From NCBI GenBank assembly GCA_022793565.1, contig JAAWDC010000018.1, positions 1 to 6,414 on the forward strand: DNA of 6,414 nucleotides. The letters are read 5' to 3'. Each line of letters begins with the position of its first letter. The stretch's first letter is position 1. The notes beneath the pieces were generated by a model. The model was not told where the DNA came from. It ran no database searches and saw only the letters and a list, made by a program, of their open reading frames with translations. The position numbers and the translations under genes are program-made. The DNA is from Bacilli bacterium. GTDB lineage: Bacteria > Bacillota_I > Bacilli_A > RF39 > UBA660. This document shows, piece by piece, positions 2,459 through 6,046 of this stretch.

Positions 2459-3991
2459 TTATTTGGGTAAAAACTGTTTGATCATCTGCTTTGCATGTGT
2501 CGTTTTTGCTTGATTTAACCATTCTAACTTTGGACCATTAGCATACGGATCGGTAACAATTTGAACTCGATCTTTTTTTTGTAAAACATAATTTACTGGA
2601 ACCATTTGATCATTCACAACTGCACTCACCATAGTATTCCCCAATTCTTTTCCCATTTGATAGGCAAAGTCAATCGCTGTAGATCCCTTAGGAAGTCCGA
2701 TAATTTCTCCCGTAGATGCATAAACATATATCATCTCTGAAAGCAATTCATTTTTGACATGATTAACAAAATCATAATTATCTACAAATTCACGATCTAT
2801 TTCTAATAGAGATTGGTAAAAAGGACACCTCTTTTTAAACTCTTCTTGCATTTTCTCTCTCGCATTTCCCTGATGAATATTCCAATAGGTAGCTAGACCA
2901 AAGGATGCTACTTGATCCATCTGAAAAGTACGAATTTGCATCTGAACAAGACGATTACTAGGTCCAAAAACAGTTGTATGGAGTGATTGATACATATTAG
3001 TCTTAGGACTCGCAATATAATCCTTCATCCGTCCATGAAATGGTTTATAAGCCTGATGAATCGGTCTTAATAATAAGTAACATTCATCTACTTCATCCAC
3101 CATAATCTTAAAAGAGAGTAAATCATGAATTTTTAATAACTTTTGATCTAGTTCTTTATCCAAAGTTAAGAAACTTCTTCCACTACCCAGCTCTTTTCTA
3201 CTTTGAACTAATCGATGATAAATCCCATATATATTCTTCATTCGAACTTTTACTTCACTAGAAACACCATGGTCATTCAAAATACAATCGATCTTATCAA
3301 GCATTTCCTCAATACAGGATTCACTATTTTCCTTAATTTTCTCCATTTTCTCACAAAGCATTTGATACACTTCTGATTCTAAATAATAAAAAGAAAGATC
3401 TTCTAACTCATTTTTAATTCGGTAAACTCCAAGCATATAAGCAATTGGTGCGTAAACTTCCATAGTCTCACATGAATTCTCTCTCTGCTTTTCTAATGTT
3501 TTATACTGAAGCGTTCTCATATTATGAAGACGATCTGCAAGTTTAATTAAAATAATACGTATATCTGTTGCCATACTAATCAAAATCTTTCTTGTATTAG
3601 CCATTCTCTCTTCAGTTTTAGAAGAAAAATTTAATTTACTAATTCGAGTAACTCCATCAACAAGACAAGCAACATCATGTCCAAACATTGCCTCAATTTC
3701 TTCTTTTGTAATCTCTGTATCTTCAATCGTATCATGCAATAAACCTGCACAAATAGTATCACAATCTGCTCCAACAAGCTCTGCTAAAATATAAGAAACC
3801 GAAATAGGATGTACAATGTATGGTTCACCACTTTGTCGAAAAGCCCCTGCATGTAATTGATCCGCTAAATGATAGGCCCTGATAATCTTAGATATTTCAT
3901 CTTGTGTATAATGCTGAGAAATCAACACTAAAAATTCATCAAATGATACACTTTCTTTTTCAGACATGCTTGTATTAACAATCCGATCCAT
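2459..3991 (-). CDS. relA: Short RelA/SpoT homologue, predicted (p)ppGpp hydrolase with degenerate synthetase
   Basis: This 510-residue protein has an HD hydrolase domain (about 30-200), a RelA/SpoT synthetase domain (about 240-375) and a TGS domain (about 418-482). Family members are usually near 730 residues and continue into helical, zinc-finger/RIS and ACT domains. This one stops soon after TGS, in GPKLEWLNQAKTTHAKQ. The hydrolase site is complete: Arg52, His61, HD 86-87, ED 90-91, Asp153 and Asn157 (LADRLHN). The synthetase domain is damaged. EVQIRT has become QMQIRT, losing the catalytic Glu at Gln350. GRPKHIYSIYKK has become VRMKNIYGIYHR (249-260). The MHxxAExGxAAHW motif has become MDxxASxGxATYW. 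About 17 extra residues sit between 262 and 289. Asp290 and the YQSLHTT loop remain. The TGS histidine that contacts the tRNA CCA end is replaced (Gly447). Hydrolysis without synthesis is the inference. ATG 3991 has an AGAGGTG RBS at 3996-4002. Expression appears to depend on read-through of the terminator at 4009-4048. Confidence 0.93.
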   Translation of the reverse strand: MDRIVNTSMSEKESVSFDEFLVLISQHYTQDEISKIIRAYHLADQLHAGAFRQSGEPYIVHPISVSYILAELVGADCDTICAGLLHDTIEDTEITKEEIEAMFGHDVACLVDGVTRISKLNFSSKTEERMANTRKILISMATDIRIILIKLADRLHNMRTLQYKTLEKQRENSCETMEVYAPIAYMLGVYRIKNELEDLSFYYLESEVYQMLCEKMEKIKENSESCIEEMLDKIDCILNDHGVSSEVKVRMKNIYGIYHRLVQSRKELGSGRSFLTLDKELDQKLLKIHDLLSFKIMVDEVDECYLLLRPIHQAYKPFHGRMKDYIASPKTNMYQSLHTTVFGPSNRLVQMQIRTFQMDQVASFGLATYWNIHQGNAREKMQEEFKKRCPFYQSLLEIDREFVDNYDFVNHVKNELLSEMIYVYASTGEIIGLPKGSTAIDFAYQMGKELGNTMVSAVVNDQMVPVNYVLQKKDRVQIVTDPYANGPKLEWLNQAKTTHAKQMIKQFLPK

Positions 3992-4008
3992 AAAACACCT
4001 CTTTCTTC

Positions 4009-4048
4009 AAACAAAAACACACAGAGAGTTTATCTACTCTGTATGTTT
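4009..4048 (-). terminator. Intrinsic terminator / candidate attenuator before the RelA/SpoT gene
   Basis: Minus-strand bases 4048-4037 (AAACATACAGAG) pair with 4026-4015 (CTCTGTGTGTTT) in a 12-bp stem with one G-U pair. The loop is 10 bases (4036-4027) and the tail is TTTTTGTTT (4017-4009). It lies between the 27-codon ORF and the RBS of the RelA/SpoT gene, and only about seven bases separate its tail from that RBS. The ORF stop codon TAA (4032-4030) is inside the loop, so a terminating ribosome would cover both arms and block the hairpin. No terminator is visible directly after obg, so transcripts from the obg promoter should meet this one too. Confidence 0.8.
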
Positions 4049-4113
4049 ATAAAATAGATGGCACTAGAAAGTCCCAAACAACAATTGAAGAATCCAACAA
4101 TAGTTTCTTTCAT
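4030..4113 (-). CDS. 27-residue hydrophobic leader peptide or small membrane peptide
   Basis: ATG 4113 to TAA 4030 encodes a 27-residue peptide beginning MKETIVGFFNCCLG and ending in INIQSR. Residues 4-24 are nearly all hydrophobic or small, enough for one membrane span, with charges only at the ends (Lys2, Glu3, Arg27). Support for translation is unusual for so short a frame: a near-consensus promoter lies 32 bases upstream and a strong Shine-Dalgarno is at 4118-4126 with good spacing. The stop codon sits in the terminator loop at 4027-4036. The FFNCC cluster (Phe-Phe, Cys-Cys) could sense charged tRNA, but it is not a long run of one residue as in classic amino-acid attenuators. Alternatives are a small membrane protein or a type I toxin-like peptide. 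I do not recognise a family. Confidence 0.6.
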   Translation of the reverse strand: MKETIVGFFNCCLGLSSAIYFINIQSR

Positions 4114-4117
4114 AGAT

Positions 4118-4126
4118 ACCACCTCT
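4118..4126 (-). promoter_or_regulatory. Strong Shine-Dalgarno of the 27-codon ORF
   Basis: The minus strand reads AGAGGTGGT, with its core about six bases before ATG 4113. It is the same AGAGGTG core used by the RelA/SpoT gene (3996-4002) and the membrane protein gene (357-363). It is a main reason to accept so short an ORF as translated. Confidence 0.7.
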
Positions 4127-4144
4127 TTTTATGTATTGAAATTG

Positions 4145-4173
4145 ATAATACCATTCAAAATTTCAAATGTCAA
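4145..4173 (-). promoter_or_regulatory. Near-consensus promoter of the leader ORF and RelA/SpoT gene
   Basis: On the minus strand there is a perfect -35 TTGACA (4173-4168), a 17-base spacer and a -10 TATTAT (4150-4145) with a TG extension (TGGTATTAT). It begins 17 bases after the obg stop codon. The predicted start is near 4138, giving about 24 bases of leader before the 27-codon ORF and about 146 bases before the RelA/SpoT start codon. Confidence 0.85.
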
Positions 4174-4190: not shown

Positions 4191-5465
4191 TTATCTTCGA
4201 TATTCAAAATTAAAATCTAATAAATGTACAATATCTCCTTCTTGTGCACCCATTTCCTCTAATTTTTCATCAATTCCCATCTTACGAAGTCTCTTTGTAA
4301 AGCGAAGCATCCCTTCTTCTGTTTGAAAATTCGTCATCCTAAAAAGTTTTTCAATTTCTTCTCCCTGAACTCTAAAATCCCCATTATCTTCTCGAAGAAT
4401 AATATATGGTTCTTCTTTTTTAAATTTATATAAGACGTGTCCTTCAAACTGATCTTCCTCATAAAGGGTAGTTTCTTCCGTCTGATCCAACAAATCTGCC
4501 AAAGCAGTCAAAACAGAGTCTAATCCTTCCTGATTCATCGCACTAATTGGATAAATTGGACTCTTGACCTTCTTTTGAAACTCTACAAGATGATTAGAGG
4601 CACTTTCTAGATCCATTTTATTCGCAATAATAATTTGTGGCTTTTCTATTAATTTTTCGCTAAATGATTTTAACTCATTTTGAATAACCTGATAATCTTC
4701 ATACGGATCCCTTCCTTCAAAGCCAGACATATCAATAACATGGGCAATTACCTTTGTTCTTTCTATATGACGAAGAAAACGATCCCCAAGTCCTTCTCCC
4801 TGACTTGCACCTTCAATCAATCCTGGCAAATCAGCCATTACAAAACTTCTTCCATCACTAGATCTACAAACCCCTAAGTTAGGAGTTAAAGTCGTAAAAT
4901 GATAAGCTGCAATCTTAGGCTTTGATTTAGAAACTTGAGAGATAAGTGTACTCTTCCCAACACTAGGAAGCCCAACCAACCCAACATCTGCAAGTAATTT
5001 TAACTCTACCTTCAAAAATTTCACTTCACCAGGCTCTCCTTTTTCAGAAAAATTAGGAGCTGGATTGCTTTGTGTTTTAAATGCCGTATTCCCACGACCA
5101 CCACGACCTCCATAAGCAACAATGACTGTATCTTCCTTCCCCTTTAAGTCAGCAACAATAAGTCCACTATCTGTATCTGTGACCACAGTTCCCTGAGGTA
5201 CACGAATCACAATATCTTCACTATTTTTGCCATGACAATTCTTTCCTTGTCCATTTTCACCTTTTTTTCCTTTAATAATTCGATTATAACGAAGATCTAG
5301 TAAGGTATGAAGACCAGTATCCACTGTAAAAACTATGTTACTTCCACGTCCCCCATTTCCACCAAATGGACCACCCATTGGAATGTACTTTTCCCGTCGA
5401 AAAGCAAGACATCCATCGCCACCATTTCCAGCATGTACTTCAATCGTAACCTCATCAATAAACAT
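4191..5465 (-). CDS. obg: Obg/CgtA GTPase, ribosome assembly
   Basis: Obg is an essential cytoplasmic GTPase that acts in late 50S subunit assembly and links ribosome production to growth and the stringent response. At 424 residues this is a full-length Firmicutes form. The glycine-rich Obg fold spans about 1-157 (HAGNGGDGCLAFRREKYIPMGGP, with further Gly runs at 118-125). The G domain has G1 GLPSVGKST (165-173), switch I FTT (190-192), G3 DLPG (212-215), G4 NKMD (282-285) and G5 SAM (308-310). The C-terminal OCT domain spans about 340-420. ATG 5465 is supported by AGAGGGA at 5471-5477, five bases upstream. Obg of Bacillus subtilis has been crystallised with ppGpp, which makes the RelA/SpoT neighbour meaningful. 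The usual neighbours rplU and rpmA are not seen here. The window's own evidence for its transcription is the extended -10 at 5510-5518, with possible read-through from the 6085-6113 promoter. Confidence 0.98.
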   Translation of the reverse strand: MFIDEVTIEVHAGNGGDGCLAFRREKYIPMGGPFGGNGGRGSNIVFTVDTGLHTLLDLRYNRIIKGKKGENGQGKNCHGKNSEDIVIRVPQGTVVTDTDSGLIVADLKGKEDTVIVAYGGRGGRGNTAFKTQSNPAPNFSEKGEPGEVKFLKVELKLLADVGLVGLPSVGKSTLISQVSKSKPKIAAYHFTTLTPNLGVCRSSDGRSFVMADLPGLIEGASQGEGLGDRFLRHIERTKVIAHVIDMSGFEGRDPYEDYQVIQNELKSFSEKLIEKPQIIIANKMDLESASNHLVEFQKKVKSPIYPISAMNQEGLDSVLTALADLLDQTEETTLYEEDQFEGHVLYKFKKEEPYIILREDNGDFRVQGEEIEKLFRMTNFQTEEGMLRFTKRLRKMGIDEKLEEMGAQEGDIVHLLDFNFEYRR

Positions 5466-5566: not shown

Positions 5567-6046
5567 TCATTTTTCCTCACACGAATTAGTTCCAAAACGT
5601 CTCTCAATTACTTTAGCTTTTCCACTGCTTACTTTTACTAAATCAACAGTACGTTGCTGTTCTGTAATTCTCCCAATCAAAATCATTCCATTGAAAGAAA
5701 AAGAAACCAATTGATCAGTCACAGCACCTAATAAATATAATTGTTGTATTTCGTAAGGATCTGTTGACCAATCAACCTTATCAATAGTTCGTCCCAACAT
5801 CATAAGAGAAACCGGAGTTTTGAAACTAAGAGTTGGCACCTGATCCAATAATTCTCCAATTTCTTGTTTATGTTCTTCTAATTTATCATGATGAAATAAA
5901 AGTGTATCAACCCCATTAGGAAGCGGAATTAATAATCGAATACCATCTGGAACATTCTCAATAGGAAATCCATTTTTCTTCCATTCATTAAAAGAAATAA
6001 TACAATCTTTAAATATTTTATTTACATTTTCTTTAGTCAATTTCAT
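5567..6046 (-). CDS. Uncharacterised 159-residue soluble protein
   Basis: I do not recognise a family. The frame is convincing: ATG 6046 has a GAGGAA Shine-Dalgarno at 6053-6058 six bases upstream, and a near-consensus promoter at 6085-6113. The protein has no signal peptide or membrane span. The N-terminal third has an amphipathic helix (NVNKIFKDCIISFNEWKKNG), followed by a likely strand (GIRLLIPLPNGVDTLLF) and a charged helix (DKLEEHKQEIGELLDQ). A second alpha/beta half (about 72-150) contains LMMLGRTIDKVDWSTDP and ends with strands around SFSFNGMILIGRI and a basic tail. No catalytic motif, metal site or nucleotide-binding loop stands out. It ends with TGA at 5567. It lies between the Nudix gene and obg on the same strand; about 100 bases with a separate promoter divide it from obg. 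A binding or regulatory role is possible but unsupported. Confidence 0.85.
   Translation of the reverse strand: MKLTKENVNKIFKDCIISFNEWKKNGFPIENVPDGIRLLIPLPNGVDTLLFHHDKLEEHKQEIGELLDQVPTLSFKTPVSLMMLGRTIDKVDWSTDPYEIQQLYLLGAVTDQLVSFSFNGMILIGRITEQQRTVDLVKVSSGKAKVIERRFGTNSCEEK

Follow-up and report, generated by a model that had tools for sequence, protein, structure and literature searches.

The locus examined here raises the question of how expression of a gene for a short RelA/SpoT-family (RSH) enzyme could be set by the leader that lies between its promoter and its Shine-Dalgarno sequence. The gene was found in a stretch of 6,414 nucleotides from a Bacilli bacterium (assembly GCA_022793565.1, contig JAAWDC010000018.1), which is called the window below. 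The leader was analysed in the window and in relatives, and the enzyme was analysed along with it.

The leader in the window

A promoter, a short ORF and a hairpin with the stop codon of the ORF in its loop are confirmed ahead of the RSH gene of the window (Table 1). A preliminary description of this DNA had named a near-consensus promoter, a strongly initiated 27-codon ORF and an intrinsic terminator with the ORF's stop codon in the terminator loop. The promoter held up, its score being the joint best in the window and common to three of the 37 promoter-like sites found there. The ORF was likewise recovered, with a strong Shine-Dalgarno sequence, and its stop codon lies in the loop as described. 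For the terminator, the 14-pair hairpin with its U-rich tract stood and was found by a separate hairpin search, but it was absent from the mechanical terminator scan of the window, which listed no terminator at all (2.1 expected from shuffles). A weak internal promoter that had also been suggested, at 4077-4049, was dropped, as it is not among the window sites scoring at least 9/12.

Table 1. Coordinates of the RSH gene and of its leader elements in the window
Feature	Position	Strand	Remarks
Short RSH gene	2459..3991	-	510 aa; HD, RelA_SpoT and TGS domains
RSH codon 350	2942..2944	-	Gln where long Rel has Glu
Shine-Dalgarno sequence of the RSH gene	3996..4003	-	AAGAGGTG
U-rich tract	4009..4017	-	TTTTTGTTT; overlaps the base of the 3' arm
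Terminator-like hairpin (predicted)	4015..4048	-	14 pairs, -15.0 kcal/mol; then TTGTTT
Stop codon of the leader ORF	4030..4032	-	TAA inside the 5-nt hairpin loop ATAAA
Leader ORF	4030..4113	-	27 codons + TAA; MKETIVGFFNCCLGLSSAIYFINIQSR
Predicted helix of leader Shine-Dalgarno/start with the stretch preceding the terminator	4049..4132	-	MFE fold; adjoins the terminator
Anti-SD side of the predicted Shine-Dalgarno helix	~4056-4063	-	
Cysteine codons	4078..4083	-	TGT TGT, leader codons 11 and 12; 35 and 32 nt 5' of the hairpin
Shine-Dalgarno sequence of the leader ORF	4119..4126	-	AGAGGTGG, ahead of the ATG
Sigma-70-type promoter	4145..4173	-	TTGACA-17-TATTAT; 11/12 matches, TG before the second hexamer
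-10 hexamer	4150-4145	-	TATTAT; 17-nt spacer
-35 hexamer	4173-4168	-	TTGACA; 17-nt spacer

Both the terminator hairpin and the helix that would hide the leader Shine-Dalgarno sequence are predicted by folding. Of 200 dinucleotide shuffles of the stretch 4140-3989, 199 folded less well than the native sequence (z -3.28). No Rfam family (riboswitches, T-boxes, known leaders) gave a match in the window at the gathering score.

Upstream of the leader lies obg (Obg GTPase; 4191-5465, minus strand), whose end is separated by 17 nt from the -35 hexamer of the leader promoter; the mechanical window scan listed no terminator in this interval. Judged by eye, the leader of L003 is likewise located downstream of obg, and other leaders stand behind other sequence. 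A 159-aa protein without Pfam match is encoded between obg and a Nudix-type gene (5567-6046, minus strand).

Leader and enzyme in relatives

Searches were carried out in 17 genomes of the genus, 386 of the family and 385 of the order, the order draw overlapping the family draw. Every genome listed by the order search as matching at E 1e-137 belongs to the window's own family. Among the matches listed, 125 short RSH loci were fetched with their upstream DNA and 19 long Rel genes were fetched as controls; the 125 leave out three further short paralogues, in genomes G020, G031 and G035. A hairpin with a U-tract, its end lying 8-40 nt upstream of the start codon, was present at 100 of the 125 short RSH genes (-8 kcal/mol or better in 92 of the 100), and 25 of the short genes had no hairpin within the set distance. 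Before the long Rel genes this combination was found at the same distance in 0 of 19, with a weak hairpin at 41 nt before two of them. The leader ORF of each locus was taken as the best-initiated upstream ORF, irrespective of the position of its stop codon, and could be called in 89 of the 100 hairpin-bearing leaders, leaving 11 without a call. At L008 and L043 the hairpin is present and the upstream sequence is too short for an ORF call. The preliminary description had suggested an alignment of related genomes as a check on whether ORF and hairpin are kept, and at these frequencies both recur. In a held-out set of 30 new short genes, for which predictions were written before the analysis and which includes some kin of earlier leaders, two of them identical, a hairpin was found in 25 and an ORF in 22 (5 without hairpin, 3 without ORF).

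Redundancy was reduced by clustering the leaders at 70% nucleotide identity, which gave 73 clusters; held-out loci represent 4 of these. Clustering at 60% identity gave 13 clusters and was too lax for AT-rich sequence, shuffled pairs reaching up to 68%. The promoter geometry is also kept, with a promoter of at least 9/12 in 68 of the 73 leaders versus 23% of shuffles, and 62 of the 73 have TTGAC ahead of the leader ORF, mostly 50-69 nt before the ORF start. Because the arrangement recurs in relatives and the promoter geometry is kept, it is more than chance.

For the position of the stop codon, a footprint was defined from 6 nt 5' of the 5' arm of the hairpin through the end of the loop. The first stop codon fell within it in 70 of 89 leader ORFs, whereas the two other frames together gave 3 of 178 and dinucleotide shuffles a mean of 5.9 (maximum 12) of 89. 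Among the remaining ORFs, 3 stop in the 3' arm, 6 run past the hairpin and 10 stop further upstream. Held-out loci gave 14/22 versus 1/44 in other frames, three of the ORFs outside the footprint missing it by one base and five ending far from the hairpin. For the 73-leader set, ORF calls had been selected by where they stop and by their length, 103 of 111 being retained, and the set's own figure for stop placing (61/73) is therefore not used here, only the unfiltered counts. The check proposed earlier on the stop-in-loop position thus shows the stop codon within the footprint in most leaders. In the clade of L009, L011, L012 and L014, the leader ORF reads through the terminator; it stops at the RSH Shine-Dalgarno sequence in L009 and L014 and overlaps the RSH start out of frame in L011 and L012. 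This overlap could add translational coupling in that clade.

These counts bear directly on the suggestion that a chance ORF precedes the ordinary terminator of an upstream transcript. AT-rich DNA is certainly full of short ORFs and hairpins, as in 785 kb of the relative G252 (two contigs), where 2325 terminator-like hairpins were counted on both strands, with overlaps counted twice. In the same 785 kb, 12 well-initiated ORFs end in a terminator-like hairpin and only two of these stand directly before a gene, namely the RSH leader and an ordinary rpmH-rnpA pair, named from its sequence. A chance ORF is contradicted by the recurrence in relatives and by the frame, stop and promoter statistics, and the terminator sits between the promoter and the RSH gene, so that this suggestion can be given practically no weight. 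Elsewhere in G252 (contig C1, ~475000+23780, plus strand) a small ORF, MKRFAGLLAAVAMLATGAASMGCIWYFIDEPEANGLFRD, was seen together with a Cys-rich ORF in another frame; it presumably resembles a cyclic-lactone autoinducer (AgrD-like) precursor.

In the FastTree analysis, 124 short proteins formed one clade against the 19 long ones with a support of 100, with several long branches; L059 was omitted from the protein alignment and the tree. This leader-bearing short RSH gene has an in-frame TAG inside it. The presence of the leader requires 16 changes on the tree of short proteins, which indicates that it was lost or gained repeatedly, and some clades possess this enzyme but lack the leader. Eight short RSH genes (L284, L289, L291, L292, L088, L090, L137 and L138) appear by eye to be leaderless, with promoter-like sequence directly before the Shine-Dalgarno sequence, as though these genes had lost the ORF-terminator cassette or had never acquired it. 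In the genus of the window (G001-G016), 7 of 17 genomes listed a short RSH gene at E 1e-80, nine listed long Rel only and G006 (77% complete) listed nothing; the hydrolase-only copy is either patchy in the genus or missed in incomplete genomes. A scan of named genomes gave at least 80 loci, of which the best three (51-56% identity; two labelled uncultured Bacilli and one uncultured Clostridium) resemble the short paralogues, the rest of the listed loci having at most 44%.

The HD motif is intact in the 88 aligned leader-bearing proteins: the H of YI.HP, the H and the D of LLHD, the E of ED and the D of KLADR are present in all 88, and the D of ED in 87 (one has Glu). At the position of the synthetase catalytic Glu, by contrast, the 124 aligned short proteins have Gln (121) or Lys (3) and never Glu, whereas Glu is kept in 19/19 long Rel proteins. 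Leader-bearing and other short proteins have the same replacement there (Gln 87 and Lys 1 of 88; Gln 34 and Lys 2 of 36). This position, codon 350 in the window, is taken to be E323 of RelSeq, the numbering being matched by the EVQIRT-type motif. The substitution E323Q in RelSeq is reported to abolish detectable synthetase activity (PMC13299517). With the HD residues intact and the synthetase Glu replaced, and with this precedent, the short paralogue is predicted to be a pure (p)ppGpp hydrolase, standing beside the long Rel that is also present in the window's genome. The regulatory loop supposed earlier had been made dependent on a hydrolase-only enzyme, which is what the active-site residues indicate. 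No ACT domain match was found in the 510-aa RSH protein of the window.

Cysteine codons and leader RNA

Beyond what had been described from the window, the relatives add two features, namely cysteine codons placed at a fixed distance upstream of the hairpin and a helix that joins the leader ORF's own Shine-Dalgarno sequence to the stretch preceding the terminator. Cysteine is encoded in 77 of the 89 leader ORFs. At -45 to -18 from the hairpin, 98 of 770 codons are Cys codons in frame, versus 30/769 and 25/768 in the other frames. When one leader per cluster was used (n = 73), the counts were 88/650 versus 26/649 and 24/648, or 13.5% in frame versus 3.9%, and the held-out loci gave 19/162 versus 2/162 and 3/162. 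The frequency peaks at -30 to -25 (20.5%, 30/146). The distance from Cys to the hairpin is tighter than that from Cys to the stop codon (interquartile range 15 versus 30 nt), the last Cys preceding the hairpin having a median position 33 nt (11 codons) 5' of the stop. Among the six ORFs continuing beyond the hairpin, five have retained Cys codons at -27 to -33 and the sixth, L107, has none there. Between close pairs, Cys sites were retained in 24 of 34 comparisons. At least one Cys codon lies at -45 to -18 in 49 of the 73 leaders. Cys is absent from that stretch in 24 of 73 and absent altogether in 8 of 73, and therefore it cannot be the sole input everywhere.

The encoded peptides themselves differ in sequence and in length, mostly 18-48 codons, and the differences counted between 14 close, partly overlapping pairs fall almost evenly on the three codon positions (60/49/77); the peptide is thus not conserved. 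A functional leader peptide was rejected as a candidate, no conservation being found beyond frame, stop and Cys. Ile, Leu and Phe are abundant in the leader peptides, as would suit a small membrane peptide co-transcribed with the enzyme, the hairpin then being an ordinary partial terminator. This explanation also fails to account for the placing of the stop codon in the hairpin, and together with the lack of conservation this makes it unlikely in the extreme.

In 79 leaders with the stop codon near the hairpin, the 5' arm of the terminator shows less pairing with upstream RNA than it does in shuffled sequences (0.27 versus 0.42, p 5e-9). An antiterminator was accordingly rejected, in line with the earlier remark that no clear competing antiterminator hairpin could be found. 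The result weighs against a classical attenuator that is switched on by starvation, in which a stall at the Cys codons would favour an antiterminator and raise expression. Cys codons before a terminator do suggest such a device, as has been proposed for the Rhodobacterales cysS leader (PMC8632094). However, a ribosome finishing the ORF would block the terminator, since the stop codon is inside the hairpin, and the target is a predicted hydrolase and no cysteine gene. A starvation-ON attenuator is very unlikely on these grounds.

Upstream of the terminator, the leader has more structure than its shuffled versions (mean z -1.8). Pairing of the leader Shine-Dalgarno sequence with the 35 nt immediately ahead of the terminator amounts to 0.63 versus 0.29 in shuffles (69 leaders, 51 of them above 0.5), the centre of the pairing partner being at a median of 19 nt before the hairpin. 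The Cys codons are mostly just 5' of this partner (median 6 nt) and pair with the Shine-Dalgarno sequence slightly more than other codons do (0.20 versus 0.14), so that an RNA-level share in their placing is possible. The difference between the reading frame and the other frames argues for codons instead.

It could also be supposed that the leader is sensitive to translation in general, any slow or failed translation of the ORF allowing the terminator to form, with Cys codons being merely convenient slow codons. The stop-in-hairpin anatomy is kept in the 8 of 73 leaders without any Cys (e.g., L076 and L080), and the Shine-Dalgarno helix would render initiation itself limiting; both would fit this explanation. 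Against it, the place of the Cys codons is tied to the hairpin, and at -45 to -18 in the 73 leaders Cys is enriched 3.2-fold, while the rare residues Trp and His are unenriched (1/650 and 3/650). Asp and Ser are also enriched there (2.8-fold and 2.0-fold), and depletion is seen for Ala, His and Tyr. A leader that is not cysteine-specific therefore appears rather improbable.

Proposed mechanism and known systems

We consider it quite probable, from the anatomy of the sequence, that the window leader is a cysteine-codon-gated attenuator of a predicted alarmone hydrolase, of the type that starvation switches off. A ribosome finishing the leader ORF would block the hairpin, and transcription would proceed into the RSH gene. 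When the ribosome is held at the cysteine codons, or is absent, the terminator would form and the gene would be off. Shortage of cysteine would thus lead to less hydrolase and to a rise of (p)ppGpp. The preliminary description had already supposed that a finishing ribosome masks the hairpin and that a stalled or absent one lets it form, and this logic gains support from the footprint stops, the missing sign of an antiterminator and the hydrolase residues. We infer that the hairpin terminates, that the leader ORF is translated, that the enzyme is a pure hydrolase and that cysteine supply is the signal, both the polarity and the cysteine sensing being deduced from the anatomy. Owing to the Shine-Dalgarno helix, the leader is probably open to no ribosome but the first (pioneer) one; this helix may also pause RNA polymerase just ahead of the terminator.

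The distances can be compared with those known from E. coli, where the ribosome almost completely represses a terminator located a few bases past a stop codon, the repression is lifted once the distance between stop codon and terminator exceeds ~27-30 nt, and 10-15 nt of free RNA between the A site and the hairpin is thought sufficient for folding (PMC4824070). A stall ahead of the pyrL terminator increases termination in the same species (PMC5021804). By analogy, the hairpin would be covered by a ribosome at the leader stop codon, and a ribosome halted at the Cys codons of the window would leave at least 29 nt free. Judged by the 27-nt threshold, a ribosome halted at the codons closest to the hairpin would continue to repress the terminator in part, and the release of the hairpin may be partial at the Cys peak of the family (25-30 nt upstream), which is near that threshold.

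Matches to cysteine synthase (TIGR01136) are rare: 3 of 35 family genomes and none of the 17 genus genomes have one, with all 14 control genomes positive; the search for a cysteine route was confined to this enzyme, and the window's genome is 76% complete. Cysteine is therefore plausible as a limiting nutrient in the family. G018, which carries the leader L010, has a cysteine synthase and yet its leader is Cys-rich. cysE-like genes were seen in 15 of 17 genus genomes and a cysteine synthase match in none, so the acetyltransferase may have another role.

In the pyrBI attenuator of E. coli the input is UTP, which acts via RNA polymerase pausing. As proposed for the window leader, read-through there needs translation of the leader (pyrL) to reach the terminator, and an upstream stall leads to termination (PMC5021804). 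The leader ORFs described here likewise reach into or through the terminator hairpin. They differ from pyrL in having placed cysteine codons and, as target, a predicted (p)ppGpp hydrolase.

Attenuators of the trp/his type are switched on by starvation through an antiterminator. The present leaders share with them an intrinsic terminator and a leader ORF with regulatory codons for one amino acid, here Cys. They differ in that the stop codon is inside the terminator, that no antiterminator pairing of the 5' arm was detected (79 leaders) and that the target, with its HD, RelA_SpoT and TGS domains, is not an enzyme making or charging the sensed amino acid. Polycysteine leader ORFs in mycobacteria are reportedly cysteine-responsive (Canestrari et al. 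2020). The genes named for those leaders in the available part of one account are cysteine genes under translation attenuation, with no RSH target among them (PMC13236596). The uORFC-8-2 motif of Rhodobacterales cysS also has Cys codons (UGC dominant) in a leader ORF before a terminator. However, it was proposed to be starvation-ON and its target is cysteinyl-tRNA synthetase, whereas the leader here has the opposite predicted polarity, no antiterminator signal and another target, in other bacteria (PMC8632094).

Two further systems are linked to the stringent response or to its enzymes. Possible attenuation by a uORF was described for obgE, a stringent-response-linked gene, in Pseudomonas aeruginosa; the leader ends there form at the obgE start codon rather than at an intrinsic terminator, and the target is obgE, not an RSH gene (PMC8297930). 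In six Bacillus strains, RshC is a second RSH copy beside Rel and is truncated after TGS, like the short RSH here. RshC is labelled as having both activities (PMC3153485), whereas the short RSH is without the synthetase Glu. The present leader resembles pyrBI in polarity and the amino-acid attenuators in its codons, and it is a proven member of neither; trp/his-type membership is not proven because an antiterminator was tested for and not found. The preliminary description knew of no attenuator of this kind for a RelA/SpoT gene, and none was found in the literature on attenuators and leaders of RSH or ppGpp genes, in which subscription journals were thinly covered.

Known control of (p)ppGpp enzymes is mostly exerted on their activity, through uncharged tRNA on the ribosome and through allostery. 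If the proposed attenuator is true, the hydrolase gene itself would read translation, that of cysteine codons especially, with a polarity opposite to that of textbook attenuators. The design rule would be a stall codon placed ~30 nt ahead of a terminator that has to be covered by the ribosome. Within one family the leader recurs in 73 clusters (less than 70% identity), and we favour, with some reserve, the view that it represents an inverted class of amino-acid attenuator there, in which Cys codons at ribosome-footprint distance set the level of an alarmone hydrolase. A shortage of cysteine would then turn the hydrolase off and raise (p)ppGpp, and this one limiting nutrient would be wired directly into the stringent response through transcription.
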